Shown one piece after another: positions 1,089 to 40,774 of a stretch of DNA of 40,774 nt; positions within the stretch are counted from its first letter, which is position 1, and each line of letters begins with the position of its first letter. The notes beneath the pieces are model-generated. The model ran no database searches. It had not been told where the DNA came from and saw only the letters and a list, made by a program, of their open reading frames with translations. The stretch is from the IMG/VR virus record IMGVR_UViG_3300048550_000924, positions 1 to 40,774 of that record; one strand, written 5' to 3'. Position numbers and translations under genes: made by a program. The stretch comes from a virus.

Positions 1089-4000
1089 TTACTTGGAGTT
1101 GTAAGGTGCAGGTTTGATGTTCAAGTCTTCTTGGTTTGAATGGGTCTTTGAAAGAGGCCTGCCTTTAATTCGGTATCTGTCAGCGGCGGCAAACCCTTCT
1201 CCATACCCTGTCGGTGAGATCTCACCTCCGATGGTAAGTTGAGAAGAGGTTGTGTTTGCTGTTAGAGGCGATCTTGTAGCCCCGTCTATACAGTGAGTCA
1301 CGACAAGTAATTGGAGTTCGTCCCCGTAGGATCTAACGTTTCCTTGAAACTCTTCATAAAAGTTCTTTACAAGCATCGCCCTACACGCCAGTGCCGACCC
1401 CTTGAGTACAGGCTTTGAACTTTCGTTAAGAGATGTCGTGAGGAAGCTGAAAGGAGAACCTGCTACATCTCCAGAACTGCCGAAGACAGCACCGCTTCCT
1501 CTAGAGACAGAGTAATAGTTATTGCTTTCAGCTAAAGGGACAGACTGACTTAGGTCTCCAGATGTCATTTGGAGAATATCACCAGACACGCCCACAGACC
1601 TTGAATAGGGTCTGCCATCAGGGTTGACGGGTACACTGTTGGACAGTGTAGAGATGTTCCCTGTAGAGGAGAAGAGGTAGCTTGATTGGTTATTGAGTAT
1701 GTCTTCACACACAAAATCTGCGTCTCTGACAAGAGACCCCAGCGGAAGCCTCGAAGTCAATCCTACGAGAGATATAGGAGTGATGCCAGATCCCGCATTT
1801 GTTGGGTTATACGAAGGTTTAGAGAATGACACAGAGGTTCGCGTCCTACTTGGGAGGCCATACTCATTTTCTCTGTTACCGACAACAACGGAATCATAGA
1901 AGTTGAAGCTCATAGGAGCTTCCCGCACGCCTTCGAAGAGCTGAAGATCTCTCCCCGCGAACTGAGTATCTAGAGACATTATAGTGTTATAGTTAGCATA
2001 AGGTTCACGGATCAAAATCCCATAGTATTTGTGATCTGACCCTGCATGCGTGTAGTCGCCCGTAACTTGGGAAAGCTCATACCCCCTGCCTTGCAGGAAG
2101 TTCATGAGCTCTGTCGCTATGATGGTTGCGTCTGCGTAACCTGCAAAAGGAAAGCTAAAGCTTTCTTTGGAATTTGAGAACGAGACAGTCGCGGTCGCGT
2201 ATTTATTTATGATCGCGATGTTATCAAAAAGGAAGATCGTTGCATACCCTCCCTTTTGAGGGGGTTGGGAAAATGTGGAGGTTTTCGTACTAGGGTATGC
2301 CCCTGTGTATAGGGTCGGATTCCTGAAAGGCTTGTGTTCAGTATGGTTTATGTCCGTCACTGTGGTAGGGTAAACTTCACCGCCGAGCTTGCCCGTACCT
2401 AGAGTGGTATAAAAGTCCATGCTCGCGAGAACTTGCAGGTTTCTTCTGTTGGGTAATTCAACGGTGTTTTGATCCCTGTTGCCGAGCTGTAGGTCGTCTA
2501 CACTCTTTCTGCCATAAGGTAGGGTTTGATCCGAGTCATCAAGAATATTTACGCCCTTTGTAAAGAAGGGGTTTCCTTGATAAACGGTTCGTTTGTACGC
2601 GACTGCGACTTTTGATCCTTGAGGAGGGGCAAAAGGGATCACGGAGTCTATTGTGATCTTGCTGGTATCAACCGCATTTCTGAGTACCCCAGACCCATTA
2701 TATTTCCTGAGAAGTACGTCTTGGTTTTTATTAATGAACCCATCTGCGAACCCGAAGACAACAGCCTCTATGACATAATCGAAGTCTTTAAAGGACTTCG
2801 TGTCATTGTAGTTAGGGCTTCTTGTGATGTCTATGGCGTGTTCTGTGAGTACATAGGTGTGTGCATCACCGTAAGAGGGGTCATTCACATCTTCATTACC
2901 ACCATTCTGGTTGATGTAGAGAGTGAAGTCTGAGACATCTGTCCTCAACAAGTTCGGGCATAGACCGTTAGTGAGGGCATCAATAGGCAGAACACGCTCA
3001 GAGTTGTGACCACTAGTATTACCGTTGCCTGCAATATGGGCTATGTACGATTCCCTGTCATAGACACCATAGATGCGAGCCACTCCGTAATAAGGGGGGA
3101 GCTCCACACCTTGTAGTGAAGTGCCAAAATCACTTGTTGGAACAAGGAGGGAGTCTGTACGATTTCCTGCAATACCTCCTTCTTCTCTTTTCCGCACACC
3201 AATAGCATTCACAGTCGCCAGACTCTGTGCGTATTCGCCGTAGTTGCCTTGAGTGTCAAAGAGGACAGGTTCAACCCCTTGGTTGCCGACATTTGAGACG
3301 CCTCCGACAATGTTAAACACCTCGTCGGAGACGGTCACTTTATCCGCGAATATGTGATTTAGACCTGAGAGGAAAGAATCGCTCCCAGATGTCCGAGTAT
3401 GCATCGGGATGTCTTGCCTACCGAATCTAGGCACTAGGGCTTCAGGTAATCTATACACGCCTTTTTTAACAAAGAGGCCGCCTCCATCTACAAGAGTTTG
3501 CCCGTTTGAGTAATTTGTGGGAATTTGGTCAGCTGCTTCGATGTGCTGGTGGAGAATAACCTGCTTCTTCTGGTAAGGTCTAAGGATAAGAGTCTTAGAT
3601 CCCTCATCTTTAAAGACCTCACTCTCCCGATCAGATTCTTCATTGATGACCCTACCTCCGAGGTTGGTAGTCCAGCCCGTGGGGAGATTAGAAGAGGGCA
3701 ACCTATTCCACAAGGAGATATGGTTCTTAGTAGGAAGGTCGATTTCACCTGAGATCAGGGGCAGAGCAGAGGCATTAGAAACATCTAAGTCACTGAGTGC
3801 GTTTCTCAAGAAGTGATCTCTGTTAGGGGGTGTGATCCCTACTTTGTGAATACTTGAAGGCACGTTCGCAGTTGCCCCTAGTGCAGGAGGGTACAAGATT
3901 GAAACGCTCAACTGAAACTCGTTCTGAGTGTAGAGTGAGTTGCTTGCTTGATCGGAGCTCGTAACTGCAATTGCGATTGAATCATCAAGCTCAGTGATCT

Positions 4001-28134: not shown

Positions 28135-28476
28135 TCAGTGGATGTCCTCTCTTGAAGCGACTTTATCGAAGGTGAGCAAGGCTTTCTTGAAGTCTCCCGT
28201 ATGGACAAGGGTCTCAGGATTACGCCCCCCTCCGCTACGGAAAACGAAGAAATCAAACCCCCCGAAGATGACTTTACCTCTTACAAGATAGATGTAGCCT
28301 GAACCGTTTTTACTCACAGCTTCTTGCATGACCTCGATCTTAACAATCGAAGGGTTCCTTGCGTGTACGTACTTCTTGAAGAACTCTGATGTGCGTGCTG
28401 TTTTGTTATGCTTTTCAAGCCTAGCGATACGGTTCTCAAGCTGGGCGATTTTCTGTGATGCGGTTAGTTGTCTCAT
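28135..28476 (-). CDS. Small protein with shared MRQLTASQKIA N-terminus
   Basis: A 113-residue protein. Residues 1-21 are the shared leader (MRQLTASQKIA, then LENRIARLEK), which has heptad spacing and would form a short amphipathic helix. The remaining ~90 residues form a small alpha/beta body (VKIEVMQEAVS, YIYLVRGKVIFGGFDFFVF) that I do not recognise. AAAAAGGAG sits 8 bases before the ATG. A strong terminator lies just upstream (28525-28563), so it may have its own promoter; TCTATATGGG near 28501-28510 on this strand is a weak candidate. It converges on the pseudogene with a 4-base gap. The leader suggests a common fate with the other four tagged proteins. Confidence 0.75.
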   Translation of the reverse strand: MRQLTASQKIAQLENRIARLEKHNKTARTSEFFKKYVHARNPSIVKIEVMQEAVSKNGSGYIYLVRGKVIFGGFDFFVFRSGGGRNPETLVHTGDFKKALLTFDKVASREDIH

Positions 28477-28524
28477 GACCTACTCCTTTTTTAGCCAGCA
28501 CCCATATAGATAAACTACAAACGG

Positions 28525-28563
28525 AAAAAAGCCCCCCCTCCCAATAGTAGGGAAGCGGGGCTT
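28525..28563 (-). terminator. Rho-independent terminator after the coiled-coil membrane protein
   Basis: On the minus strand: arm AAGCCCCGCTTCCC, 7-base loop, arm GGGAGGGGGGGCTT, then TTTT. Fourteen pairs with one mismatch and one G-U, ending in a run of six T in total. It ends the unit that runs down from ~31.0 kb. Confidence 0.85.
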
Positions 28564-28607
28564 CTTAAAGAGCGATCTCCTTGAGGTAAACTCAGGTACA
28601 ACTAGGT

Positions 28608-29192
28608 TTACTTCAGGGTTAACATCGGGATTGTGCAGCTTTTCAACTCGCCAGCGAGTTCAATTTCGCGACGTAGGAGGTTGCCCACACCTTTGTTTAG
28701 AGAAGCAATGGTGTGTTTCGCTTTCATAAGGTCGAGGCGAAGCACATCTGTCTCAAAAGCGAATTTTTCTTCTGATCGAGTCAGCTCATTCTGAAGGTTG
28801 CCCGCTCTCTTGACCGCCTTCACCAATGCTATATCTTTGCTCGACGAGATCTCTCGCAGAGTCAGATGCACCGAGTCAGTGAAAGCCTCTTCGAGACCGT
28901 TGGTGAATTTGAGATCCTCAAGCTCCTTTAATGTCTCAGTGAGAATGGCGTGTTGTTGAGTACGAACCAAGACTTCTTGTGCTAAAAGTTGTCTTAGCGT
29001 ACTCTCAGCCTGCGAAGCTTTAGAGGTCAACCCTTTAATATAGAGGAGGTTTTCAGCCTCCACCGCCTTCGATTCCATTTGGGCTTCGTGCTTGACTGCG
29101 TCAACCACATGGTTGGTGTATGAGTTAACCGCAAGGCCTACGAAGAGGACGAATAAGAGAGTAGAAATTAGTGTTCCTCTGAATTGTAACAT
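28608..29192 (-). CDS. Membrane-anchored coiled-coil protein
   Basis: A 194-residue protein. Residues ~7-25 are a single hydrophobic segment (LISTLLFVLFVGLAV) with a short cytoplasmic N-terminus, followed by a long, mostly helical charged region (residues 30-185) typical of coiled coil. It ends CTIPMLTLK with one Cys. This plan resembles an inner-membrane spanin (Rz-like), but the usual nested outer-membrane lipoprotein partner was not seen and no holin or endolysin is nearby. A virion membrane-interacting protein is equally possible given the membrane proteins at 36-40 kb. AAAGGA lies 9 bases before the ATG and a strong terminator follows. Confidence 0.7.
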   Translation of the reverse strand: MLQFRGTLISTLLFVLFVGLAVNSYTNHVVDAVKHEAQMESKAVEAENLLYIKGLTSKASQAESTLRQLLAQEVLVRTQQHAILTETLKELEDLKFTNGLEEAFTDSVHLTLREISSSKDIALVKAVKRAGNLQNELTRSEEKFAFETDVLRLDLMKAKHTIASLNKGVGNLLRREIELAGELKSCTIPMLTLK

Positions 29193-29208
29193 TTTTTAAA
29201 TCCTTTTG

Positions 29209-29239
29209 AAGTGAAGTGAAGTTTTTTGACACTTCACTT
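29209..29239. repeat. Inverted repeat with duplicated arm
   Basis: AAGTGAAGT occurs twice overlapping (29209-29217, 29214-29222) and both copies can pair with ACTTCACTT at 29231-29239, giving two mutually exclusive 9-10 bp hairpins. It lies just upstream of the ribosome site of the coiled-coil gene. There is no T-run on the minus strand, so it is not a clear terminator there. Confidence 0.5.
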
Positions 29240-29268
29240 ATCGTTTTTCTAGGGGGGTCACTATTTTT

Positions 29269-29610
29269 TTAGCGAACTTTTACATGCACGTCCACTTCGC
29301 CTGTTGGATATCGGTAGGTTAGATAGGAAGAGGACTTAGGCACATTGGGTACCTGCGTTACTTTATATGTGTTTTTGAAGTCATATCCGCTAACAGACTC
29401 CCGCACTACTTCTGGGTTAGAGACATTGAGGGCTTGAAGCACTTTCTGATCTACATCATCTGACAGCCTGAATGCTTGAGCTTTGCTTTTTGCGATTCCT
29501 CTCAGGCTGTAACCCACCTCTATAATATAAGAGGACTTTCCCTTACGCTCCAGATTTGCGATACGGTGTTCAAGTTGAGCTATTCTTTGCGATGCTGTTA
29601 GGTGTCTCAT
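29269..29610 (-). CDS. Small protein with shared MRHLTASQRIA N-terminus
   Basis: A 113-residue protein. Leader variant MRHLTASQRIA, then LEHRIANLER, the most diverged of the five copies. The body starts SSYIIEVGYSLRG and continues LSDDVDQKVLQAL, similar in pattern to the start of the 37101-37742 body (EYNVSFGYTIHK, then MAEIVDAKIKNFL). So two tagged proteins appear to share a related alpha/beta body. The start lies one base after the stop of the upstream gene (TGACATG), so translation is coupled. Function unknown. Its position among the other small proteins suggests a common structural or ejected-protein role. Confidence 0.75.
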   Translation of the reverse strand: MRHLTASQRIAQLEHRIANLERKGKSSYIIEVGYSLRGIAKSKAQAFRLSDDVDQKVLQALNVSNPEVVRESVSGYDFKNTYKVTQVPNVPKSSSYLTYRYPTGEVDVHVKVR

Positions 29611-29611
29611 G

Positions 29612-30229
29612 TCAATCTCTTTTCAACTCTAGTTTTACGACTAAGGTTGTATCCTTATGGAACGTCCTAGTCTTCACAGTCTTGTTGATTTTCTTCTTCA
29701 TCTTCTTGGTGAGCGTCGCGTTCTTCTCTAGGTAGAACACTGCATCAAGAGTCCTCCACCAAGATCTACCAAAACCTAGATTGAAAGAGCTAGGTCTGAT
29801 TGAAACATTCTTCGGTAATCCGTAATATTCCTCAAGCCAGACTCTTAGTTCTGAATGAAGGACTCTCTTACTGTCATATGAGCTCATACCTGTGAATAAT
29901 TCTTGAGGTAGCCTCGCTGACCTGACAGTCACCTTGAACTCCAGAGGTATCCTGTCCGCAGGCATCGACTTTATAATCTTCCAACCATATAAGGTGTAAC
30001 CGTAGGTATCAGACAGGTAGTCTGATACGATCTCATATCTTTTTTCTTCAAAGCCTTCTATCTCTGCTTCTACTAGCTTTTTCATTAGTCCAGAAGGCAA
30101 CTTAACTCTCAGAGGTAATCCCAGCTCAGTTCGGATCTCATCTTCAGAGAGGGTCTCGATGTCAATGACATCATCAATCTCGACATCTTCGAGATCCCAA
30201 TCTACTTCTATAACGTGTGGTACTTTCAT
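29612..30229 (-). CDS. Hypothetical protein, translationally coupled
   Basis: A 205-residue protein starting MKVPHVIEVDWDLEDVEIDD. I choose this start over an in-frame one at 30328 because it forms an ATGA overlap with the preceding gene and GAGAGG lies 7 bases upstream. The N-terminal ~35 residues are very acidic (DWDLEDVEIDDVIDIE), the middle mixed, and the C-terminus strongly basic (KKMKKKINKTVKTRTF). No signal peptide or membrane segment. The family is not recognised. The C-terminal region (RSWWRTLDAVFYLEKN) faintly recalls the end of the 37101-37742 product (WRWSGSIRVEQFHKLKKRKK), consistent with distant kinship but not proof. Confidence 0.7.
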   Translation of the reverse strand: MKVPHVIEVDWDLEDVEIDDVIDIETLSEDEIRTELGLPLRVKLPSGLMKKLVEAEIEGFEEKRYEIVSDYLSDTYGYTLYGWKIIKSMPADRIPLEFKVTVRSARLPQELFTGMSSYDSKRVLHSELRVWLEEYYGLPKNVSIRPSSFNLGFGRSWWRTLDAVFYLEKNATLTKKMKKKINKTVKTRTFHKDTTLVVKLELKRD

Positions 30230-30888
30230 AGTGACCTCTCTTTGATAAATTCGCTTGCAAAATCGTCGCACATGTCGAAGAACTTCTCTTGAGCATTGAG
30301 GTCTGGTCCTCTTCTTGTAGAGAACCATAAGTCAATGTATTCAACCATCTCTCCCATGAAGCCATCATAGTCATCATGGTTATCCTTAGCCGCCCGTAAC
30401 ACTTCTCGGAGGATGATAGTTATGAGACTAGAGTCCAGATACACGTACCCTCCATCCTCGTCACGATATTGAATATCCTCTAGGCCTCTAAAAGAGGCCT
30501 TAACATCTTCGAGCGTTATTTTTGGGGTTTTCTTATATGCTGGCTTTGGTAGCTTCTTTGCTCCGTAGCGATCTAGATGCCTGTTCAGGTCCGTGTGAGT
30601 CATCTCTTGAACTTCCAGCGTCACATATTTTCGTATCCTGCGAGTCAAAGTAACCCGAATATTCTTTGGTATCGTGACCTGATAGGTGGAAGGGAGAGCA
30701 AAGATCGTGACCTTTTGATATCCATTCGAGAAAGAGCCCTCTCGAAGTGCCTTGTGCTTTAACTTGAGCCTAGTGCGTATACTTCTCTCGACTATTTTAG
30801 ACATTTCCTTTGCTTCATAAAATGAAAACGCATATCTTTCGAGGTTATATTTGTACGTGAGCACGTTATAGGTAGGTTCTGTGTTCAT
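30226..30888 (-). CDS. Hypothetical protein related to tagged small proteins but lacking the leader
   Basis: A 220-residue protein starting MNTEPTYNVLTYKYNLERYAF. The ATG at 30888 is 11 bases after the stop of a 30-codon membrane peptide; an in-frame start at 31005 has no ribosome site and would overlap that peptide, so I reject it. The first ~60 residues (YNVLTYKYNL, then EAKEMSKIVERSIRTRL) match in pattern the body of the tagged 37101-37742 protein (YNVSFGYTIH, then IEDMAEIVDAKIKNFL). The rest is helical and acidic toward the end. It overlaps the next gene as ATGA. It appears to be an untagged cousin of the leader-bearing proteins. Function unknown. Confidence 0.7.
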   Translation of the reverse strand: MNTEPTYNVLTYKYNLERYAFSFYEAKEMSKIVERSIRTRLKLKHKALREGSFSNGYQKVTIFALPSTYQVTIPKNIRVTLTRRIRKYVTLEVQEMTHTDLNRHLDRYGAKKLPKPAYKKTPKITLEDVKASFRGLEDIQYRDEDGGYVYLDSSLITIILREVLRAAKDNHDDYDGFMGEMVEYIDLWFSTRRGPDLNAQEKFFDMCDDFASEFIKERSL

Positions 30889-30899
30889 AGTCTTTCTTT

Positions 30900-30992
30900 C
30901 TATAAGAATAATCCATAGATCGTAAACCCCGCGAGGGTAACAGTGAAGGCTTTTGCGATCAAGAGTGTTTGTCTTTGTTCTGGTGTCATCAT
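30900..30992 (-). CDS. 30-residue single-span membrane peptide
   Basis: A short reading frame starting MMTPEQRQTLLIAKAFTV and ending with a hydrophobic run of Leu, Phe, Ile and Gly, so a polar N-terminus then one transmembrane helix. GGAAAGTAAAG lies just upstream of the two adjacent ATGs. The gene is followed 11 bases later by the next gene on the same strand. A TATAAT box 54 bases upstream makes it the first gene of its unit. Small single-span peptides of this type are common among phage lysis, superinfection or membrane-remodelling genes, but I see nothing to choose between them. It is too short to exclude chance. Confidence 0.5.
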   Translation of the reverse strand: MMTPEQRQTLLIAKAFTVTLAGFTIYGLFL

Positions 30993-31040
30993 CTTTACTT
31001 TCCATTAGAGTTACACAGATGCTCTTTCGTAGCTTCTGTA

Positions 31041-31051
31041 ACCCTATTATA
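31041..31051 (-). promoter_or_regulatory. Putative -10 box (TATAATAGGGT) for the 28.6-31.0 kb unit
   Basis: Minus-strand TTTCTATAATAGGGT; TATAAT itself is at 31046-31051. It is 54 bases upstream of the small membrane peptide. No -35 hexamer is evident. It shares 11 bases with the plus-strand box at 27597. Confidence 0.45.
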
Positions 31052-31074
31052 GAAAGTAGAACGGGACACCTTTT

Positions 31075-32442
31075 TCAGATACCTTTTATCTTGTTCATGT
31101 ATGTATCTTGACCGCCAATCGCGGATAAGGCGAAGAGTGTGGTTTCAAAGTATTCTCTAAATTTGGGGTCTTGAGACAAGAGGCCCTCAGCCTCATTTAC
31201 ACTTAAAGATCCCTGATAGGCATCGCTCTCTTCATTCGTGATGTAAACAAAGCAGAGTACACCTTGACTGTCTTGTTTGGTGAAAGCCCTCATCTCTGTT
31301 CTGAGGTAGAGATTTGACCCCTTCCCTGCGTAGCCCCTTCTCTTGTCTAGGAGTGTTAAGACTTTTCCTGATACTTCTTGAGGGTACTCGTATAGAACCC
31401 CTTCAATTCTCCCACAAGGAGTAGTGCCAAAAACGAGATGGTTTCTACCCTTGTGTTGCATATTCAGCTCCCTTGAAACCCCATTTATGAAAGCTCTTCT
31501 CTCATTACAGATGCTTTCTGGTTCAATTGGGTCGGACATCAAAGACCCATAAGCGAAAACTTTGAGTGTGTCTTGACGCGGGTCTCTCGGTTTTGAGACT
31601 AACTTCTTTAGGTCTTCGTTTCTGACTTCTAAGTCACCTTTTTTGTTCCGAAAGACCTTCTTCACACAAACTTTGCACTTGGCAGGCCCTCTGAATTGCT
31701 TTTCATAACCTTCGTAGACGCTATCGTCATCAATAGTAATGATAGTCATCTTCTTTTTTGAGGGCTCAAAAATAAATTGGTTGCTGGTGAACATATCTGC
31801 TCTGCGAACTACATTGAAAGGGCTACTTATGTCTTTCATTCTTTGCTGATATAATTTCTTAACAATATCCATAGGGTATCGGATTTTTGATTCTAACACC
31901 TCTAATGTTTTATCTCGCCTCCGCCTTGAAGACTCTAAGTCCTCCCCTTGTGTGTAACCTGCATCCTGATGTCTTACCCCATGATTTGACCTCACGAAAT
32001 TCCGATCTACGATCTCTTCAACTTTTGCTTTGTGGTCGCTGGTCTGCTCCACAACAAAGGTATTCTTTTGGTCCGTGAGAATAGTATGGCCTCGAATACC
32101 CTTCCTGTAGTTTGTTATCTTATTTAAGGCTTCGAGGAGAGATTTGCACTCCAATGCTTCGAGGAATTTCCATGAGTCTGCAGAATACAGCGGTGCTCGC
32201 TTTTTCCCCTCTTTCTCATCGAGCTTAACCGCGAGAGCGGAGTTGGTAATACAGATGCCATACTCATTAATGCCCTCAATCCACCCTGAGACGGTATCTT
32301 GAAAGTACAAAATCTCCGTGCCATTATCTGCTATGCGGTGAATAATTTTGAAACGAGGCAGGTAATTCCTATCTCTGTTTTTGAATATGACTTTCCGATC
32401 CCCAAGATGGGTAAGGGCTATCACGCACGCATTCTTATTCAT
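31075..32442 (-). CDS. Ntn-hydrolase-like domain fused to gamma-glutamylcyclotransferase-like domain
   Basis: A 455-residue protein. Residues 1-~240 resemble Ntn hydrolases of the C45/acyltransferase or linear-amide hydrolase type: candidate nucleophile Cys6 after a short MNKNA leader, KNRDRNY at 21-27, EGINEYGICITNSAL at 56-70, RSNHG at 151-155 and ESSRRRRDK at ~170-178. In that family self-cleavage exposes the Cys. After a linker with CKVC, residues 295-~400 carry FAYGSLM (296-302), GVLYEYP and LLDKRRGY (364-371), the plan of gamma-glutamylcyclotransferases/AIG2 proteins. In these the catalytic Glu normally lies in D.REGY; here the equivalent residue is Arg369, so the second domain may be inactive or altered. 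AAGGAG precedes the ATG. It could process peptide or glutamyl amides; the substrate is unknown. Confidence 0.7.
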   Translation of the reverse strand: MNKNACVIALTHLGDRKVIFKNRDRNYLPRFKIIHRIADNGTEILYFQDTVSGWIEGINEYGICITNSALAVKLDEKEGKKRAPLYSADSWKFLEALECKSLLEALNKITNYRKGIRGHTILTDQKNTFVVEQTSDHKAKVEEIVDRNFVRSNHGVRHQDAGYTQGEDLESSRRRRDKTLEVLESKIRYPMDIVKKLYQQRMKDISSPFNVVRRADMFTSNQFIFEPSKKKMTIITIDDDSVYEGYEKQFRGPAKCKVCVKKVFRNKKGDLEVRNEDLKKLVSKPRDPRQDTLKVFAYGSLMSDPIEPESICNERRAFINGVSRELNMQHKGRNHLVFGTTPCGRIEGVLYEYPQEVSGKVLTLLDKRRGYAGKGSNLYLRTEMRAFTKQDSQGVLCFVYITNEESDAYQGSLSVNEAEGLLSQDPKFREYFETTLFALSAIGGQDTYMNKIKGI

Positions 32443-32507
32443 GTCAAATCTCCTTGTCTTTAGGACTTACCGCACTAAAACAAGGATATAAAACAGTTAT
32501 AAGGATC

Positions 32508-35015
32508 TTACTTCAAGAACCCGAAGGCGTAGACACCATGCTCAAGGCTTTTAGCAAGCTGTTGATGTTTTACCCTTAAGGACTCCCACTTAGATTTAAG
32601 TGTTGGGTCGGTGTACCACATCTTTTTGTGTTGATAGATACCTGCGTCCCAAGCGTTGAGGTGCAGATCAATCTCTTTACCCTTCTCAATCACTTTTGAT
32701 GTCTTAGATCTCAACTCAAAGCTCTCAACAAAAAGAACGTTAAGGTCGCTCATGATCTCTTGTGCGAGACGTGAAAGGTTAAGCGAGGGCAATACACGGG
32801 AAAAGTAAGGGTCTCCATCCTTAGCCCATTCTGATGCGTCTACGAGACCGCCCGCATGGTGATATGGGATAGGGTTATTTTTAGCATCTCGAAAAACGCT
32901 TCTAGCACTATTATGTGAGCCATAAAGATCAAGAGCTTCTTTACGAGTCAGCCAGAAGAAGTGATTGTGAATATTATAAGTCTTACCTTTGTATTCGACA
33001 CCCCTCATAGAGGTCATGTTATTCTTGTTTTCAAGCAGAGTGTAGACATGGCAGTCATCAACCCACTGCTCATAGCCCTCTTTCTCAGTCTGAGGAGCTA
33101 GGTACTCGTCATTATGTGTGATCCATGTATCCTTACTTAATTTACGAGCTGAGTAGAGCGAGATTGCCCTACGCCAACCGTCTCCTTCTAAAACTGACAA
33201 TCCGTTAGAAGCAGAACCACAAGAAGAAGTGAAAAACACAACTTGATTTTGCTGAGGGCAGTTAGCGTTGTTAGTTAAGTAAAGAAGTGAGTGCTCTACT
33301 AGCTTTCCTCTACCTTTCGGAGCGATAGAGAGTCCCGATCTCATCTGCGGAGCATCTCTACCTTTAAGACTCTTGACAGGAAATCGAACCCAATCAGAAG
33401 CCCTTCTATTGTCTGCGTTGTAAAGTTCTTTCTCTCTCAGGGAAACAACCTCTTCAAGATCACTCATGTCTTTCAGAGTAATAGGAAGGTCTTGAGTGAC
33501 CTCTGTCTTGCCCTCGTTCCAAAGAGTAAAACTGATAGCCCAAGACCCTTTAACATCTGCAAAATGAGAGGCTTGGAACATGAAGCCCGACTGATAAGAA
33601 TACTTTCTATACCAAAAGGGGCGAAACTTGGAAAAAGAACCACTCACCATATAAAGAATAGGTGAAAACACACCTACGCTCTTTTGTTTGAAGCCATACC
33701 CTGAAGCTACTTGTTCGCATTGAAATAAGAACTGAGCATAAAGCTGTTGAGAGCAAGCCCCTAACTTAGCCCCCTTCATCTCTTGGTTTACAATGGTACT
33801 CGCTACTCCCTTTCGAGATTCTGCACCATTTACCGCTGCTGCGGTAGCATAAGGGGGGTTGATAAGAAATACTAATCGCTTTCCACTCTCTGCCCCTTCT
33901 TTTAAGATCTTCTTCACTGAAAGTGGAAGCACATTGTCAGTTCCCTCAAAGAATGGACTCTCAGATTCGGGATTTAGAAAGTCATACTGAAATATTTCTG
34001 CTCCATTATTATACTCTTCTCTTTTCATTGCCTTTACATCTGGTTGCTCCGCAGTAGATAAGATCAGATTCTTAAAATCATAGTCTCTAGTCAAGTTGCC
34101 TGTACCTGCACAACAATCCCAAACGATACAGTCATCTCTCCATGTTTCACCAAGCACTTTGTCCATCTCAGAATGTGCTTCACCTACCCATAAAGTAGGT
34201 GTATAGAACGCACCTTGCCTCCTGCGTGTGTCATCTTCAATAATGCGATCTCTCATTGATAATAGATTATCAATGTCTTTTGCAGATAAACCACGCTCTC
34301 TACGCTCAAAGAATGCTCGCATAGAGGAAAGGTTTAGAGTATACTCTTTGCCTCCTAAGATGACGGTGTTCTTTTTTGAGGGGTGTTCATAAGCATAGTT
34401 GTCATCTTCCTCCGAATAGAACACACACCCGAAGAAAAGGTCTATCATCTCTACAGGCTGATAGCGATCAGAAGGGAAGATATGATCAACCCAATACTGA
34501 TACATCGCACTGATGTTCTTCTCCGAAGGCTTTACCTTAACAATAGCCCCTTCTGATAGTTGCTCACAAAGTTGTTTGAGCTTCTTTCCGTCTACTTCAA
34601 AAACAGACTCAAGCTGCACATCGACGGACACTTTTAGACTAGGGTCTGGTGAACTAGGTCGTCTACCCCAATCTATGTTAGCGTCTAAGAAACTTTTGAT
34701 AGAATCAAAACCCACCACAAAGCAAAACTTTTCATCTCCAATGAAAATGACGCTAGGTAGATGCTCCCCCTCTACTTCAAACCTCTTGCAGTAATAGAGA
34801 GCTTGAGCAAGAACACTTGATCGAGCTGTTTCTATAGTGAGGTCAGTGCCATACTTAGCCTCAAGTAAAACCCTTACAGGGGTCTTACTTGGTGTTTCCC
34901 AATCTAAGACTCCATCAGTAGCCCAATTTCGACCAGAGTAGGTCTTGAAGCTATTCCCGACCTCTTTTTCAAGAATGCCTCTTAGGAACGCATTTACATC
35001 TTGTTCTTTTCTCAA
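32508..35015 (-). CDS. Type IIG restriction-modification-like protein (nuclease + adenine-N6 methyltransferase)
   Basis: An 835-residue protein. N-terminal DGVLDW (34-39) with LEAKYG (51-56) fits a PD-(D/E)xK nuclease core (Asp38, Glu52, Lys54). The methyltransferase part has FYTP at 270-273 (motif X), VWDCCAGTGNL at 298-308 (motif I, SAM binding), QYDFLN at 343-348 and INPPYA at 385-390 (motif IV, NPPY, adenine-N6). The C-terminal ~400 residues would hold target recognition. This order and length match single-chain type IIG enzymes of the Eco57I kind. The start is TTG at 35015, with AAGG upstream. The gene has its own promoter and lies just after a terminator, so it is an insulated cargo gene. 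It may protect phage DNA, attack rival DNA, or only methylate if the nuclease is dead. Confidence 0.85.
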   Translation of the reverse strand: MRKEQDVNAFLRGILEKEVGNSFKTYSGRNWATDGVLDWETPSKTPVRVLLEAKYGTDLTIETARSSVLAQALYYCKRFEVEGEHLPSVIFIGDEKFCFVVGFDSIKSFLDANIDWGRRPSSPDPSLKVSVDVQLESVFEVDGKKLKQLCEQLSEGAIVKVKPSEKNISAMYQYWVDHIFPSDRYQPVEMIDLFFGCVFYSEEDDNYAYEHPSKKNTVILGGKEYTLNLSSMRAFFERRERGLSAKDIDNLLSMRDRIIEDDTRRRQGAFYTPTLWVGEAHSEMDKVLGETWRDDCIVWDCCAGTGNLTRDYDFKNLILSTAEQPDVKAMKREEYNNGAEIFQYDFLNPESESPFFEGTDNVLPLSVKKILKEGAESGKRLVFLINPPYATAAAVNGAESRKGVASTIVNQEMKGAKLGACSQQLYAQFLFQCEQVASGYGFKQKSVGVFSPILYMVSGSFSKFRPFWYRKYSYQSGFMFQASHFADVKGSWAISFTLWNEGKTEVTQDLPITLKDMSDLEEVVSLREKELYNADNRRASDWVRFPVKSLKGRDAPQMRSGLSIAPKGRGKLVEHSLLYLTNNANCPQQNQVVFFTSSCGSASNGLSVLEGDGWRRAISLYSARKLSKDTWITHNDEYLAPQTEKEGYEQWVDDCHVYTLLENKNNMTSMRGVEYKGKTYNIHNHFFWLTRKEALDLYGSHNSARSVFRDAKNNPIPYHHAGGLVDASEWAKDGDPYFSRVLPSLNLSRLAQEIMSDLNVLFVESFELRSKTSKVIEKGKEIDLHLNAWDAGIYQHKKMWYTDPTLKSKWESLRVKHQQLAKSLEHGVYAFGFLK

Positions 35016-35061
35016 TTGCTATACACCTTTATCTTGTGACATCCCTTGTTTAGAAGTCGGT

Positions 35062-35089
35062 ATTATAAGATAAAGGCGTGCCACGACAA
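35062..35089 (-). promoter_or_regulatory. Promoter of the restriction-modification gene
   Basis: Minus-strand -35 TTGTCG (35084-35089), 16-base spacer, -10 TATAAT (35062-35067), then a ~40-base leader to the TTG start. The -35 overlaps the T-run of the preceding terminator. Confidence 0.6.
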
Positions 35090-35120
35090 AAAAGCACATA
35101 CCCAAAGCTGGAATATGTGC
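35088..35120 (-). terminator. Rho-independent terminator after the virion protein gene
   Basis: Minus strand: GCACATA, a 13-base loop that can add CC/GG pairs, TATGTGC, then TTTTTT. It follows the stop at 35185 by about 65 bases and separates the virion gene from the restriction-modification gene. Confidence 0.75.
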
Positions 35121-35184
35121 ATGGTAGCAGTCGAAATTAAGGGTTAAAGTGCTGTCTAAAGCACCTCCTCATATTATTAGGTTC

Positions 35185-36150
35185 TTAGATGACCCCTTGA
35201 GCCACACTCAAAAACTCCGAAATCATCTCGTAAGTACCTAGAAATAAAGGGAAAACCAGAAAGTTTCTGGGTGAAAGAACGCCCCGACCGACATGCGGTC
35301 CGAAGGCACTCCTTATCCCCACGCCATATTTGGGTTGACGTAGACCCCTAATGAATTTGGTGGTTCGAGTCTTTGCTTCAACAGACTGAGACCACATCTG
35401 TTCTGCAGAAGACTTGAGGCTTTCATACTTTGAGCTACGGTCTATGTTAAGAGAGATGCCTCCTATACTGTAGTCAAACTCATCCACGATCCAATTCGCT
35501 TGTAGAGCCATAGCCGCAAACTGAATAGCTCCCTGAATTATTGGAGTTCTCCATGCAGGCTTACTAGATACGAGTCGGTCTAGTGTAGCGAGATCCTCTG
35601 TCTCAGGAGGTTGCATGTTCCACCAATCTAAAGCCCTCTCAAGATACTCAAGCATCTCTTCATCTTCCCACACTTGACCAAAGACACGATTGTAAGAACC
35701 TATGTTAGCTTCATGCTCTGGTGGTCGAAAATGGTAATATTTATCAGGGTTCTGGTCTCTGAGGAGCATACGCAACTTATAGATCATAGACTTCTGTGCC
35801 TCTGTGAGCTGTAGACCTAAAACAGCGTTCTCGGCGACCGCTCCGAACTCTTGCACCACGGTCTGAGGGTTACTGTTCACAAACTCTTTGAGAGTCCACC
35901 TTATACGGTATCTGCCATAAGTCGCGGTATTGGGTATGCGAACAGAGGCGTAGTATTCACCTACAGAGGGGTTCTCAGGTACACGTTGCGGGTCACCTAT
36001 GAGGACATCTGCCTCTGGAGGACCTGGTTCAACGAAGTAGAGAGCATATGTGATCTCAGCCGCGTTCGCCACGTTCCCATTTGAGTTGGTGAGGAAGATG
36101 TCAAGATCACCCCTACCTAATATTTGATTTCTCTTGAAAGCTACAGCCAT
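35185..36150 (-). CDS. Probable virion structural protein
   Basis: A 321-residue protein. Residues 1-~105 form a beta-rich Ig-like domain (VGEYYASVRIPNTATYGRYR is typical of a strand-turn-strand). The middle is helical with LTEAQKSMIYKLRMLLRD, YYHFRPPEHE and LEYLERALDWWNMQPPE, then a hydrophobic helix (IIQGAIQFAAMALQ). The C-terminal ~60 residues are Arg/Gly-rich, then PRNFLVFPLFLGTYEM. The combination (N-terminal Ig, helical body with a WWNMQPPE-type motif) recalls head-tail or neck proteins of large phages, but I cannot name a family. AAAGGAGG lies 5 bases before the ATG, the best ribosome site in the region, suggesting high expression. A terminator follows. Confidence 0.65.
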   Translation of the reverse strand: MAVAFKRNQILGRGDLDIFLTNSNGNVANAAEITYALYFVEPGPPEADVLIGDPQRVPENPSVGEYYASVRIPNTATYGRYRIRWTLKEFVNSNPQTVVQEFGAVAENAVLGLQLTEAQKSMIYKLRMLLRDQNPDKYYHFRPPEHEANIGSYNRVFGQVWEDEEMLEYLERALDWWNMQPPETEDLATLDRLVSSKPAWRTPIIQGAIQFAAMALQANWIVDEFDYSIGGISLNIDRSSKYESLKSSAEQMWSQSVEAKTRTTKFIRGLRQPKYGVGIRSAFGPHVGRGVLSPRNFLVFPLFLGTYEMISEFLSVAQGVI

Positions 36151-36161
36151 GCGACCCTCCT

Positions 36162-37079
36162 TTATCTCTTAACAAGAGGGTGAAGGTCTAAACTACGAAG
36201 TTGGAAACTCATAGTACGTCTATTTTTTTTATTAAGTAAAGGAGGATCCATACGATCAAAGTAGACAATTAAACCATCTATGTTCACACTGAATTTATTA
36301 TAATCAGAAAAAATGAAACCCGATACTCCTCTTTCTTCCGATCCGAAATAAGCATAACCCTGAAATTTAGCAGCTGAAGATACGGATGGGAAATAATTTA
36401 CATTGCTGAAATCTACACTCTCGAAAAAATCCTCAAAAAGAGATTCGAGAGTCTTGTGTAAATAATCCTTTTTTTCCTTTTCATCCCTCTCAAGATACTC
36501 CAAAAAGTGTCGGTGACCCAAGTTTACAAAATAGAACGAACTCACAATAATTGATATTAATGCGAAGGTATATAAAAGACCTGACGCTTCTTTACTCATT
36601 GAAGCTTTTCTAAAAGGTATCTTGCTCACAACCCACTGATAACAGATGTCTGCGATACAAAGTATCGCAATCAGAGACCCTGCTATACCTGCGGATTTAG
36701 CTAGAATAGTTAATGCAAGTAAAGCACTACCTCTTCTTCTCATGGATGCTCTTCTTGAAGACTCAAGCTCCCCACTCTTGTAAACATCAATAACATAAGC
36801 GACTTGTTTAACAGGAGAGCTACCTGCTTCTTTTTGAACCTGTTTGACCGCCTTCTTGAAGTCCGAGTTATTTCTCACCTTCATGTAGTCTTTAGCGATC
36901 TGCTTTGGGTTCTTTCTGGTGTCTTTAATGATCTTCTTGGTTTCAGGGAAGAGTCTCTTAAAAGGCTCCATCGCTTCAACGGCCTTAGCCTTAAGGCTGT
37001 CAAGCATAGCTTGTTTTTCAAGATGGGCTACCCTGTTCTCAAGGGTCGCGATTTTCTGTGATGCTGTGAGTTGTCTCAT
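36162..37079 (-). CDS. Two-span membrane protein with shared MRQLTASQKIA N-terminus
   Basis: A 305-residue protein. Residues 1-23 are the shared leader (MRQLTASQKIA, then LENRVAHLEKQA). Residues 25-110 are basic and helical, then come hydrophobic segments at ~118-150 (possibly a hairpin) and ~167-187. The ~115-residue C-terminal domain is soluble (FSNVNYFPSVSSAAKFQGYA, later FSDYNKFSVNIDGLIVYFD). EKQAM after the leader is shared with the 39196-39825 membrane protein. AAAAAAGGAG lies 8 bases before the ATG. The 38 bases around the start are identical to those of the next tagged gene. A membrane protein sharing a leader with soluble proteins argues that the leader sets destination rather than function. 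No family recognised. Confidence 0.75.
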   Translation of the reverse strand: MRQLTASQKIATLENRVAHLEKQAMLDSLKAKAVEAMEPFKRLFPETKKIIKDTRKNPKQIAKDYMKVRNNSDFKKAVKQVQKEAGSSPVKQVAYVIDVYKSGELESSRRASMRRRGSALLALTILAKSAGIAGSLIAILCIADICYQWVVSKIPFRKASMSKEASGLLYTFALISIIVSSFYFVNLGHRHFLEYLERDEKEKKDYLHKTLESLFEDFFESVDFSNVNYFPSVSSAAKFQGYAYFGSEERGVSGFIFSDYNKFSVNIDGLIVYFDRMDPPLLNKKNRRTMSFQLRSLDLHPLVKR

Positions 37080-37085
37080 AGTAGG
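37048..37085 (-). repeat. 38-bp direct repeat, copy 1 (start region of tagged gene)
   Basis: Identical, base for base, to 37711-37748. It covers the sequence from just before the ATG to about codon 11 of the shared leader. Other tagged genes carry diverged versions (28444-28476, 39793-39825). Confidence 0.85.
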
Positions 37086-37100
37086 ATTCTCCTTTTTTTA

Positions 37101-37742
37101 TTATTTTTTGTATCTGAAAGTCACTATGTTACCTGAAGGCAACTTCTTGCGTTTTTTGAGCTTATGGAATTGTTCAACCCTAATTGAACCAGACCATCTC
37201 CAAGTAAATTTCTGAGGACTTCTCGCTATAGGGAGGTAGAAAGCCACGTCCTCAGTAAATCCGTTTTCAATCAAAGTCTCTTGAATCTCAAGAGTCAAGG
37301 GGTCGTGTATCATTGCATTCCAGACATCAGGTGTAATACTTCTCGGCTTACGGACTTGTGCGAGGATCTCAAGATCTATAGTATTTCTGACAACGGAGAA
37401 ATAGACCTCTACTACCTCACCTTCAATATTGAATAGCTTTTCAAATTCTTCTTTGAAGTCAAAGTCGGGCTTTGCATCGACGATATAAGACCCTCCAAAC
37501 TCTGGTTTGTAAACATCATGCGAATACTTGAGGGGTTCTTTTACCTTCGCCCCTTTGGATGTGAGGAAATTCTTAATCTTGGCATCTACGATCTCTGCCA
37601 TGTCCTCAATATCATGTTTAGGAGATTTGTGTATAGTGTATCCGAAGGATACATTATACTCTGTGGCACGAGCCTGCTTCTCAAGTTGGGCGACTCTGTT
37701 CTCAAGAACAGCGATTTTCTGTGATGCTGTGAGTTGTCTCAT
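37101..37742 (-). CDS. Soluble protein with shared MRQLTASQKIA N-terminus
   Basis: A 213-residue protein. Residues 1-23 are the shared leader (MRQLTASQKIA, then LENRVAQLEKQA). The body starts ATEYNVSFGYTIHKSP, IEDMAEIVDAKIKNFL, and is matched in pattern by the bodies of the 29269-29610 and 30226-30888 products. The middle is acidic (PDFDFKEEFEKLFNIEGEVV); the C-terminus is basic (FHKLKKRKKLPSGNIVTFRY). No membrane segment. GAAGGAG precedes the ATG by 8 bases, and the gene runs 21 bases ahead of the next tagged gene. Function unknown. It is the best link between the leader family and the untagged relatives near 30 kb. Confidence 0.75.
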   Translation of the reverse strand: MRQLTASQKIAVLENRVAQLEKQARATEYNVSFGYTIHKSPKHDIEDMAEIVDAKIKNFLTSKGAKVKEPLKYSHDVYKPEFGGSYIVDAKPDFDFKEEFEKLFNIEGEVVEVYFSVVRNTIDLEILAQVRKPRSITPDVWNAMIHDPLTLEIQETLIENGFTEDVAFYLPIARSPQKFTWRWSGSIRVEQFHKLKKRKKLPSGNIVTFRYKK

Positions 37743-37748
37743 AGTAGG
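37711..37748 (-). repeat. 38-bp direct repeat, copy 2 (start region of tagged gene)
   Basis: Exact copy of 37048-37085. Identity extends outside the coding part, so it reflects recent duplication or recombination at the DNA level and not only protein constraint. Confidence 0.85.
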
Positions 37749-37819
37749 CTTCTCCTTCGCTATTTTCTAACAAAGGAGGGCTGACTATAAAAGAAATATT
37801 ACATTGCAAGCCACTTTCC

Positions 37820-37825
37820 TATAAG
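37820..37825 (+). promoter_or_regulatory. Weak candidate -10 (TATAAG) for the plus-strand orphan gene
   Basis: Plus-strand CTTTCCTATAAGAGGGGG, 25 bases before the ATG at 37851. It resembles the TTTCTATAATAGGG box at 31041-31051. The -35 is poor (TTACAT at a 15-base spacing). Confidence 0.3.
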
Positions 37826-37850
37826 AGGGGGACAGAAAGGACTTTACAAC

Positions 37851-38243
37851 ATGGATATTAACATCAGTTTTACACACACCCCCGACACCCTACGAGCCGA
37901 GAAGGTGGCTTACAGGTATTCGGACAAAGAAATTGGAAGCTTAATCAGGGACACCCTAAAAGAGCTTAAGGAAAACGTGTGCCTATATAGGAAGATACGG
38001 GGCGGTAAGGTTTTGGGTCGCATGGCCTTGATCCCCCGCAAGACACTCGCAGGTAAACCTGAAGTGAAAGTGATCTTCCCTGTCACACACTTTTCTTTGG
38101 AAGAGGGCGAGAGCCAAGTTTTGTGGCAGGCAGAGATTGTCATCGACGACAGAGATTGGCTCTATCAGACAGGTGAGAACTTCGTTGTCTCTATGAAGAA
38201 TCTTTACCCTAATACCAATCAAGAAAATGAATACTTCGTCTAA
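37851..38243 (+). CDS. Hypothetical plus-strand orphan gene
   Basis: A 130-residue protein, MDINISFTHTPDTLRAEKVA, with YSDKEIGSLIRDTLKELK, then a basic strand region (KIRGGKVLGRMALIPRKT) and an acidic C-terminus. AAAGGA lies ~9 bases before the ATG, and a TATAAG box lies further upstream. It is the only apparently intact plus-strand gene inside the minus-strand block and overlaps the stop of the convergent 38240 gene by 4 bases. Two shorter antisense frames exist, but they lack ribosome sites. The start pattern (alternating strand, then helix) loosely recalls the tagged-protein bodies. Function unknown; it looks like a small inserted cargo gene. Confidence 0.65.
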   Translation: MDINISFTHTPDTLRAEKVAYRYSDKEIGSLIRDTLKELKENVCLYRKIRGGKVLGRMALIPRKTLAGKPEVKVIFPVTHFSLEEGESQVLWQAEIVIDDRDWLYQTGENFVVSMKNLYPNTNQENEYFV

Positions 38244-39007
38244 TCTTCTAGGTCTCTTTTAAGATCTCGGATTTCAGACTTCAGCTCATTAAGCATCTGA
38301 GACGCAACACGTACTTGAGATGCTCTCTTACCCTTGAAAAACCTTTTAATTTTTCTGCCCAGAGAATAGTCGGAGGCGAGAGTCTTATAGGCTCTACTTT
38401 TGTACGCTTCAAGAGCGGCACTTAAGTCTTTGAGACCCTCCCTTTCGTCATAGGTGAAGTAATATTTCTCTGCGATGAAAGGGTGGGTCTCAAATAGTTC
38501 ACTTAAATCGACAGCTATCCTCTCGATCTTAGAGTCGTTCCCCTCATTGATTGCGGACTCTTCAAGGAGAGCGTCTACCTTTTCTTCAAGATCTTTTCTC
38601 TGAGCGTCAGACCTCCAAGCTCTATGCTCTACGGGGTCAATCTTACCGTTATCCCACATGAACTTGGCTCTTTTGATGATAAAGCCTGCATGATAGAAGT
38701 TGCCTCTAGCTAATGGTGTGTTGAGTTGGGCAGAGGAGAAATCCGCCCCCGTAAAGTCTACTTCAAGGTCTTTTCCGCCAAACATATCAGCGAAGACTTC
38801 ATCATAAGCACCCCGTTGGGACACAATCTTTTTAATGAAGTATTTAGGAAGCCGTGCGTTTTCAAACGTTATTTCCTCGATGGATTGGTTGTCTAGCAAA
38901 GAATCAGGGGCTAAGTCTGTGATTCTCCTCAGGTCAGCATCCTTGAAGTCCAACACAGGCCCTGATCCCTTTATGATGTCTTCATATTCTTTTTGATCGT
39001 ACTTCAT
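38240..39007 (-). CDS. Hypothetical protein with short pentapeptide-like stretch and C-terminal coiled coil
   Basis: A 255-residue protein. VDFTGADFSSAQLNTPLARG near residue 84 and LDFKDADLRRITDL near residue 19 resemble pentapeptide-repeat turns, and the left-edge gene (3-749) has clear ones, so the two may be relatives. The middle is charged and helical (DAQRKDLEEKVDALLEE). The C-terminus is basic (KRFFKGKRASQ), then a short coiled coil (LNELKSEIRDLKRDLED); ASQ..VASQMLNELKSEI is faintly similar to the leader LTASQKIAQLENRI but at the opposite end. The ribosome site is weak (AGAAAGA). No function assigned. Confidence 0.65.
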   Translation of the reverse strand: MKYDQKEYEDIIKGSGPVLDFKDADLRRITDLAPDSLLDNQSIEEITFENARLPKYFIKKIVSQRGAYDEVFADMFGGKDLEVDFTGADFSSAQLNTPLARGNFYHAGFIIKRAKFMWDNGKIDPVEHRAWRSDAQRKDLEEKVDALLEESAINEGNDSKIERIAVDLSELFETHPFIAEKYYFTYDEREGLKDLSAALEAYKSRAYKTLASDYSLGRKIKRFFKGKRASQVRVASQMLNELKSEIRDLKRDLED

Positions 39008-39030
39008 TTTTGGTCTTTCTTAGTAAACGT

Positions 39031-39075
39031 GATCCCTAACCCCTCTTCTCTTAATAAAGAGGTTATTAGGGGGTC
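39031..39075. repeat. Imperfect inverted repeat upstream of the 38240 gene
   Basis: Arms CCTCTT/AAGAGG and CCCTAA/TTAGGG separated by a small internal loop. No T-run follows on the minus strand. It lies in the 188-base gap 39008-39195, which otherwise holds no gene that I can support; it may be an attenuator or leader structure. Confidence 0.35.
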
Positions 39076-39195
39076 ATATTTCACTGCTAGGTTTAATGTG
39101 TTTGCTGTTCGAGAACCCTCCCAAAATGGGGTGTTCACTTCATCGTCTCAGTAAAGAAGTTGTCTTTATTCTCTTATGTGATCTGGAGGGTGCCG

Positions 39196-39825
39196 TCACG
39201 AAATACCCTGACCGATCAGGGAGGCAATGGCTTTTGCCAAGGTACTTATCCCTTTTAGTGGGTAATAGAGGATTTTGAGTACGAGCAACGCCCAAGAACC
39301 CGTCAAGTTAGATAGAAATCCTTTACCGAGGAGATTCCTATCTACCTTTGATATGAGGTCTTTCACCACGTCTGCAAGATAAGCAGAGCAAGTCCCTATT
39401 AAAATTAATCCTAGACACAGTCCTAGTCCAATAATGAATTCTTCAGGTGTCGCCATACCCAATGCTAGGGTAACAGATGCCTGCTTGCTTGGCCCTAGAT
39501 ACTTAACACCATACTTGGACTCGAGAACTTCAAGATTGTCTCTGTCCATAAGCATACCTGAGAGGGTCTTTATCTTTTGTTCATGAGACTTCCCTCGAAG
39601 ACTCTTGTCAAGTTGCCTGTACATCTTTGTCCTTGAAACCTTGCTTTGCTTACGCATAAGCTCTTGAGGCTTAAGGCCGAGGTCTTCTAAAGCACGGCTT
39701 GCTTCTTTGAGGGGCTTCAGTCTAGAGAACAAAGATCTTATCTTATTGAACATAGCTTGCTTTTCAAGCTGGGCAACCTTGTTTTCAAGAATCGCGATTT
39801 TCTGTGATGCTGTTAGTTGTCTCAT
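39196..39825 (-). CDS. Two-span membrane protein with shared MRQLTASQKIA N-terminus
   Basis: A 209-residue protein. Residues 1-23 are the shared leader (MRQLTASQKIA, then LENKVAQLEKQA), followed by AMFNKIRSLFSRLKPLK, a basic amphipathic helix. Residues 30-115 are basic and helical. Hydrophobic segments lie at ~128-150 (EEFIIGLGLCLGLILIGTCS) and ~174-195. The plan (leader, basic helical region, two membrane segments) matches 36162-37079, without its C-terminal domain. The ribosome site is poor: GGGAG lies ~14 bases from the ATG. Function unknown; a leader plus membrane helices would fit an ejected or capsid-internal membrane-active protein (inference). Confidence 0.7.
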   Translation of the reverse strand: MRQLTASQKIAILENKVAQLEKQAMFNKIRSLFSRLKPLKEASRALEDLGLKPQELMRKQSKVSRTKMYRQLDKSLRGKSHEQKIKTLSGMLMDRDNLEVLESKYGVKYLGPSKQASVTLALGMATPEEFIIGLGLCLGLILIGTCSAYLADVVKDLISKVDRNLLGKGFLSNLTGSWALLVLKILYYPLKGISTLAKAIASLIGQGIS

Positions 39826-39899: not shown

Positions 39900-40774
39900 T
39901 CAACTAGCCTCTGCTAAAGCTTCATTAATTTCTGGAGGTGCAGAGTCTTCGTCTACGTCATGCTTTCTTATTAGGTAGTTGAACATACTTGCGTTATCGC
40001 GGACATAGTCTAGTATTTCATCTCTGACGTAATTACCAGCGTTCAAAACGCCTGATATCGCGGACTTAATAGTATTCCAAACCCAGAAGAAGCCTAACTT
40101 AGCTTTCTGCCAACCCGTCGCCCGCCCCATTACGTCAGAGAAAGTTCTTGACTTCTGTATTACCTTTTTGGCCACAAAGACAAGGCAACCAAGTACGACG
40201 AAGGCGACTGCAAACCATGTCCCAAATGAGCCTCCTATGAGCCCCTTCAAGAATCCAGACACCATAGGGAGGCTTTTAGCTGAGATACTAATCAGCCAAT
40301 TGTAAGCGACAGAAGACCAATTTGCCACTGTCGATATCACAGTCCAACTGTTTTTAATTAAGTAAGCCCACCAAGCCCACTTAGCTGGTTTAGCGAGAAC
40401 CTCTCCTCTAGGGAGAAGGTCGATTAACCACTCTACAGCAGGCCCTCCTGTGATATAGCTTGCGAGACGCAATGCTTTCGAAGTAAATCCAGAATACCTT
40501 TCAAACTCTTCTCGAATATCTTCTTTCACCTCTTCATACTCTTGCTTATCTAAATAATCTTTCCCATCAAGTGAGTGAGGCCTCCCTGTCTCAGGCGACA
40601 CAGGATTCTTACCCTTGGGCTTTTGGCTCGGCTTCCCTTGAGCTTTCGGTGCGGGATCTCTTCTTGAAGAGGGTGCGGGATCTCTTCTTGAAGAGGGTGC
40701 GGGATCTCTTCTTGAAGAGGGTGCGGGATCTCTTCTTGAAGAGGGTGCGGGATCTCTCTGTCGAGGTCTTGCTT
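39900..40774 (-). CDS. Membrane protein with N-terminal DPAPSSRR repeats, 5' partial
   Basis: The frame is open to the window edge; a GTG at 40601 could start a 233-residue product, but in-frame codons continue upstream through a tandem octapeptide repeat DPAPSSRR (four copies plus a partial) and a basic Pro/Gly/Lys linker (KPSQKPKGKNPV). So the N-terminus is a disordered, Arg/Pro-rich tail cut by the window. The body has hydrophobic segments including GGSFGTWFAVAFVVLGCLVF and others around WWAYLIKNSW and WLISIS, a multi-span or re-entrant membrane protein. The C-terminus is acidic. No family recognised. It is likely a virion or host-membrane-interacting protein. The shared leader cannot be checked because the true start lies outside. 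Confidence 0.7.
   Translation of the reverse strand, partial: ARPRQRDPAPSSRRDPAPSSRRDPAPSSRRDPAPSSRRDPAPKAQGKPSQKPKGKNPVSPETGRPHSLDGKDYLDKQEYEEVKEDIREEFERYSGFTSKALRLASYITGGPAVEWLIDLLPRGEVLAKPAKWAWWAYLIKNSWTVISTVANWSSVAYNWLISISAKSLPMVSGFLKGLIGGSFGTWFAVAFVVLGCLVFVAKKVIQKSRTFSDVMGRATGWQKAKLGFFWVWNTIKSAISGVLNAGNYVRDEILDYVRDNASMFNYLIRKHDVDEDSAPPEINEALAEAS
40648..40757 (-). repeat. 24-bp tandem repeat encoding DPAPSSRR
   Basis: Four perfect 24-base copies (40648-40743) and a 14-base partial fifth, in frame with the minus-strand gene. Perfect identity at DNA level means recent expansion by slippage or recombination. The product is a Pro/Arg/Ser-rich disordered stretch. Confidence 0.9.

Follow-up and report, generated by a model that had tools for sequence, protein, structure and literature searches.

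Five genes on the minus strand of the IMG/VR virus record IMGVR_UViG_3300048550_000924, all 40,774 bases of which make up the window analysed here, begin with a common N-terminal leader, MR[QH]LTASQ[KR]IAxLE..[IV]AxLE[KR], and continue into different bodies. In related jumbo phages, as read from their sequences, this leader is a tag that is used genome-wide, is modular, has been exchanged between bodies and is conserved as protein, and an excess of a short motif, [KR]xA[SG], is common to the putative scaffold, the head protease and many of the tagged bodies. What could such a tag be for? The explanation towards which we lean, and which on balance seems somewhat probable, is that it is a prohead-core (capsid) targeting propeptide, employed genome-wide and cut off by the head protease after residue 24; from the tag and the motif we infer the location in the prohead, the docking partner, the cleavage and the ejection. 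As the window is the whole virus record, the genome-wide test was made on relatives, the metagenomic jumbo-phage contigs G007 (297 kb), G010 (312 kb), G001 (177 kb) and G015 (376 kb). Genes were called as longest open reading frames (ORFs), with no trained caller.

One leader on five bodies

The first-pass annotation of the window had reported the common leader on five different bodies, and this was confirmed, ORFs and N-termini included: the leaders score 81.2-90.6, against 29.8 for the best other stretch in all six frames of the window. When the five are aligned 14 of the 24 columns are invariant, LE at residues 13-14 and 20-21 included, and the hydrophobic residues at 10, 13, 17 and 20 (I10-L13-I/V17-L20) have the a/d spacing of a coiled coil; the leader is modelled as a helix, at low confidence. 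The genes and their leaders are as follows.

28135..28476, minus strand: tagged gene 1, 113 amino acids (aa), soluble body; KVAS 7 residues from the C-terminus, KTAR directly after the tag
28405..28476, minus strand: leader 1, MRQLTASQKIAQLENRIARLEKHN; without [KR]xA at residues 22-24
29269..29610, minus strand: tagged gene 2, 113 aa, soluble body; without a [KR]xA[SG] site
29539..29610, minus strand: leader 2, MRHLTASQRIAQLEHRIANLERKG; the most diverged of the five, without [KR]xA at its end
36162..37079, minus strand: tagged gene 3, 305 aa, two hydrophobic spans
37008..37079, minus strand: leader 3, MRQLTASQKIATLENRVAHLEKQA; putative cut after A24, between 37008 and 37007
37101..37742, minus strand: tagged gene 4, 213 aa, soluble body; without [KR]xA[SG] in the body
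37671..37742, minus strand: leader 4, MRQLTASQKIAVLENRVAQLEKQA; putative cut after A24, between 37671 and 37670
39196..39825, minus strand: tagged gene 5, 209 aa, hydrophobic spans; KEAS and KQAS in the body
39754..39825, minus strand: leader 5, MRQLTASQKIAILENKVAQLEKQA; putative cut after A24, between 39754 and 39753

Once freed of the leader, the bodies show no significant similarity to one another by phmmer, the best E (0.02-0.04) being that for the pair of membrane-type bodies. Ordinary family conservation therefore does not account for the leader, and the relationship suggested earlier for two of the soluble bodies finds no support. Gene 3 has five [KR]xA[SG] sites in its body, among them RRAS just ahead of the first of its two spans and RKAS/KEAS in the segment that separates them. 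None of the five proteins has a convincing Pfam or PHROG match, the weak matches being below cut-off; no relatives of the gene 3 or gene 4 bodies were found in GenBank phages, nor any of the gene 5 body in IMG/VR. AlphaFold models of gene 3 and one related tagged protein, with mean pLDDT (predicted local distance difference test) of 51 and 55, are not interpretable, and a PDB fold search with them gave no match at E <= 0.001.

A modular tag used genome-wide

Leader scans of IMG/VR yielded 20 loci, G007, G010 and G001 among them. Whole-record searches then gave 20 leader matches in G007 and 28 in G010, and a profile of the core, IAxLExRIAxLEKxA, picked out 21 N-termini in G007 and 26 in G010 together with a handful of other protein matches; in G015 there are 32 profile matches, and 24 genes meet the strict N-terminal pattern. 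The profile search in relatives proposed by the first-pass annotation thus found the tag at up to ~30 gene N-termini per genome in one clade of jumbo phages of 177-376 kb, and the idea of a sorting tag is strongly supported: many more genes have it, on unrelated bodies, and tags have been exchanged between bodies. Alignment of 67 tagged proteins from the four genomes gave the consensus MRxxASxxIxxLExRIARLEKxA and almost nothing beyond it, and 74 tagged proteins from eight records fall into 39 body clusters, so far are the bodies from being homologous over their full length. One 19-member cluster does consist of real paralogues.

Tag and body do not travel together. At G010:91547 a MRQLTASQ tag precedes a body whose homologues have tags of the MNKVSAQQ or MNRHARV type, pentapeptide-repeat proteins occur both with and without a tag, and homologous pairs of the MRQLTASQ class are 79-92% identical in the tag as against 23-35% in the body. 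Because synonymous codons vary within the leader from phage to phage (TCA/AGT/TCC/TCT/TCG for S7, CGT/AGA/CGC/AGG for R16, GCC/GCT/GCA for A18), it is the protein and not the DNA that is conserved. A DNA-level element is rejected by this variation, as ordinary family conservation is by the ~39 body clusters and the tag swaps.

As to the bodies themselves, several have membrane spans, three have pentapeptide repeats, and a Cupin_8/JmjC hydroxylase domain (Pfam E 2.8e-22) makes a candidate virion-carried enzyme of one, G010 183903-184802 (L084:3903-4802), whose gene lies ~2.5 kb downstream of that for the capsid protein. Both the JmjC/cupin enzyme and the pentapeptide-repeat proteins are plausible as head cargo. 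A small gene directly after the capsid gene of G007, 218962-219216, has a tag-like sequence (IVRNLERRVARLEKSSR) at its C-terminus instead of its N-terminus.

How far does the tag extend? The record LR745208 and Tunturiibacter phage Tunturi_5, which have the same head module, have no tag by script and by profile search with positive controls, and none was found in Bacillus phage G by a profile search without a positive control. The clade is an abundant one, with a relative of its capsid protein encoded by 517 IMG/VR stretches; in cellular genomes the protein has matches only in two contigs in metagenome-assembled genomes. A literature text search found no paper with the tag sequences in the library covered, and searches for a comparable head tag turned up work on T4, phiKZ-like phages and P1.

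The head proteins and the end of the tag

Head genes of G007 were assigned by PHROG: the maturation protease (213912-215354), the major capsid protein (217796-218674), portal and terminase. Between the protease and capsid genes lies an acidic protein, 215369-217036 (L101:15369-17036), which from its position, composition and conserved C-terminus is taken as the putative scaffold. In it are EF-hand-like motifs for calcium binding, which match Pfam EF-hand_6 at E 1.2e-4, short of the curated cut-off, and which the aligned G010 copy lacks. No peptidase family of Pfam matches the protease at E <= 0.1.

The [KR]xA[SG] motif was first spotted by eye in the G007 scaffold and protease and then counted over all x.yz patterns, among which K.AS and R.AS proved the most enriched in scaffold, protease and a core-like protein of 781 aa. 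These three together have 41 [KR]xA[SG] sites where 5.0 are expected (~8x), with permuted controls at ~1 or lower, and 38 scaffolds have 227 against 39.7. The excess replicates in records outside those used to find the motif, and is also seen in the scaffold-like and protease proteins of the tag-free LR745208 and Tunturi_5 and in the head proteins of G015. Such richness of scaffold and protease fits a maturation protease that would cut both the core and itself. The capsid protein has KLAAS at its N-terminus in G007 and Tunturi_5, not in phage G. Three untagged G007 proteins, 239246-240856, 3046-3981 and 117813-118880, have [KR]xA[SG] near their N-termini (e.g., RTASFNRVRTAS, RVASVSPSHLAKIAS, QKRAG) and are possibly head proteins with other propeptides.

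In the tagged bodies of G007, G010, G001 and the window pooled, counted after removal of the tag and eight further residues, there are 59 sites against 16.0 expected (3.7x, z 11.5; controls 0.6-1.4), and 27 of the 59 fall in the last 35 residues of the protein, where 8.4 would be expected. One large body family has a KxAS near the C-terminus that is nearly invariant in alignment, and three of the four members of the window gene 3 family align at an RxAS that immediately precedes the first hydrophobic span. Among 80 non-redundant N-termini the tag ends with K or R at residue 22 in 86% and A or S at residue 24 in 82%, followed by S or G at residue 25 in 35%, as against 6-20% at the next ten positions. 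The better candidate cleavage site is probably, on this pattern, that after residue 24, following LE[KR][QE][AS], and not that after Glu14 or Glu21. Tagged genes also gather on the downstream side of the capsid gene, at 1-4 kb from it (19 in 98 kb), while upstream of it they are rare, 4 in ~223 kb (36 distinct capsid-gene loci, whose relatedness was not corrected for), and they are spread over the genome as well.

Put together as a mechanism, an N-terminal amphipathic helix of ~24 residues would dock many unrelated cargos onto the scaffold core during head assembly. The head protease, apparently favouring a cut between the A and the [SG] of [KR]xA[SG], would then remove the leader after residue 24 and also cut many of the cargos near the C-terminus or between domains, and the mature proteins would be left inside the head, probably to be delivered with the DNA. 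Of the destinations that the first-pass annotation had offered, the capsid core is the best supported, through the motif common to scaffold and head protease and the tagged genes that closely follow the major capsid gene, with location in the virion itself presumed; the virion membrane interface has no specific support.

Several observations weigh against this explanation. The scaffold was identified by position and composition only, no docking site for the tag was found on it, and tag-free relatives share the head module, which means that head assembly as such can do without the tag. Testing of the motif came after it had been noticed in head proteins of G007, and the tagged bodies of G015, mostly small, have 7 sites against 4.1 expected, which is neither significant nor above the rest of that genome. 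At the tag end the full [KR]xA[SG] is present in only 22 of the 80 N-termini, two of the five window leaders have no [KR]xA at residues 22-24, the small residue at 24 could be explained by its also being a coiled-coil core position, and R16-x-A18 within the tag fits [KR]xA likewise. Derivation of the tag from a helix of the G007 scaffold (TQRLARLERLAS) was considered separately and is not convincing: 11 of 300 shuffles reach its score in G007, and 73-129 do in three other scaffolds.

Might the leader, then, have nothing to do with the head? A helix that binds some phage-made hub in the infected cell, be it a replication compartment, a membrane site or tail assembly, and is never cleaved, would have a heptad pattern that suits any coiled-coil partner, and would accommodate the membrane spans of several bodies and the scatter of tagged genes across the genome; what ties the tagged proteins to the head is, after all, sequence-based and not physical. 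However, the [KR]xA[SG] excess that bodies and tag ends have in common with scaffold and head protease, and the concentration of tagged genes downstream of the capsid gene, speak against it, and we consider it unlikely while taking it seriously. A little less probable again is a head-targeting tag that is not cut at 24, and either is cut at another place or stays on the mature protein and holds it to the portal or the inner shell. In its favour are the lack of [KR]xA at 22-24 in two of the window leaders and, among all tags, in about one in three, and the lack of a site excess in G015 bodies. Against it, tag ends that are otherwise variable keep K/R at residue 22 and A/S at residue 24, S/G is raised only at 25, and scaffold and protease are marked by the same motif.

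T4-like processing, in which, as the first-pass annotation supposed, Glu14 or Glu21 in its xLE context would be the residue after which a capsid-targeting leader is cut, has the invariant LE pairs to recommend it; however, the helix accounts for those Glu residues and the expected sites are no more frequent than chance. Because [LI].E stands at 39 against 39.1 in scaffold, protease and the related head protein, a cut at Glu14 or Glu21 is not supported; it is at 119 against 120.7 in the tagged bodies, and [ST].E, a proxy for (S/A)xE with AxE outside the count, is at 43 against 43.3 in head proteins, where [KR]xA[SG] is strongly enriched. We hold this reading to be very improbable. The least probable, and largely refuted, is ordinary paralogy or recent copying of DNA, with a gene family or a 5' end spread as a DNA or translation element and a peptide without a role: the window leaders are very similar in DNA, codon 2 is AGA throughout the MRQLTASQ class and some tagged genes, those of the 19-member cluster, are real paralogues, but against this stand the ~39 body clusters with pentapeptide-repeat and JmjC/cupin folds among them, the disagreement of tag class with body relationship, and residues that stay constant as their codons vary.

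Known systems and the proposed cargo of giant phages

In T4, internal proteins are targeted to the core by a capsid-targeting sequence (CTS) of 10-19 residues that gp21 removes (PMC9026906, PMC7411985). The present tag resembles the CTS of IPI-III and Alt in being a short N-terminal leader common to unrelated bodies (67 proteins share only the tag, in ~39 body clusters), in the proposal that it targets proteins to the prohead core and is then taken off by the head protease, and in the variable, non-core nature of the cargo genes; the function is shown for T4 and inferred here. It appears to differ in leader sequence and length, in having up to ~30 cargo genes as against four, in a likely cleavage after [KR]xA, by sequence proxy, instead of (L/I)xE, and in a head protease that no T4-type family in Pfam matches. 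The five window proteins had no Pfam or PHROG match to T4 internal-protein families. By analogy the tag would work like the CTS without, it appears, being a member of it in sequence.

Ejected head proteins are processed in giant phages too, as in SPN3US (PMC5694885, PMC10052503), where the paralogous pair gp53/gp54 has an identical 15-residue N-terminus (PMC5694885). In phiKZ, SPN3US and 201phi2-1 most propeptides are long, at 111-254 residues, only two having 20-24 (PMC10052503), and the cut is after Glu. Common to those jumbo phages and the present ones are many head proteins with N-terminal propeptides, here candidates, and C-terminal processing of the protease, here putative. However, no common tag on many unrelated bodies has been described for them, and the Glu-specific motif of phiKZ and SPN3US is at chance here, again with [ST].E counted and AxE outside the count. 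The head module itself can be followed by homology: the major capsid protein is 88% identical in LR745208.1, 47% in Tunturi_5, 38% in phage G (gp27) and 29% in the cluster C mycobacteriophage Myrna, and the head protease is likewise homologous in all four. LR745208 and Tunturi_5 share with this clade the module and the [KR]xA[SG] excess, but not the tag.

Some other features deserve mention. In the window an ORF at 31075-32442 resembles an N-terminal-nucleophile hydrolase fused to a gamma-glutamylcyclotransferase-like domain, with close homologues in G007 and G010; a TTG-start ORF at 32508-35015 resembles an N6-adenine DNA methyltransferase (NPPYA motif), its N-terminal part being present in G007 and G010 also; and a perfect 24-base tandem repeat of 4.6 copies at 40648-40757, the very end of the record, encodes RRDPAPSS repeats. 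In G007 the ribonucleotide reductase large subunit (192434-195031) and a second protein (150944-153937) have intein-like insertions, judged by eye and by a split PHROG match.

A broader and more tentative proposal, which we put forward as possible, is that of a clade-wide cargo-loading code, in which one exchangeable, cleavable helix would pack ~10-30 fast-evolving proteins per genome for injection, some cut by the protease into membrane-spanning pieces and others enzymes such as the JmjC/cupin hydroxylase, with a [KR]xA[SG] specificity unlike that of the Glu-specific T4 and phiKZ proteases. If so, there would be a new head-protease specificity and a second capsid-loading tag, unrelated to the T4 CTS. 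A 24-residue motif would then predict which unannotated jumbo-phage genes encode head-carried, possibly injected, proteins, the injected repertoire of uncultured giant phages would become readable from sequence, and the virus could bring varied cargo into its host.

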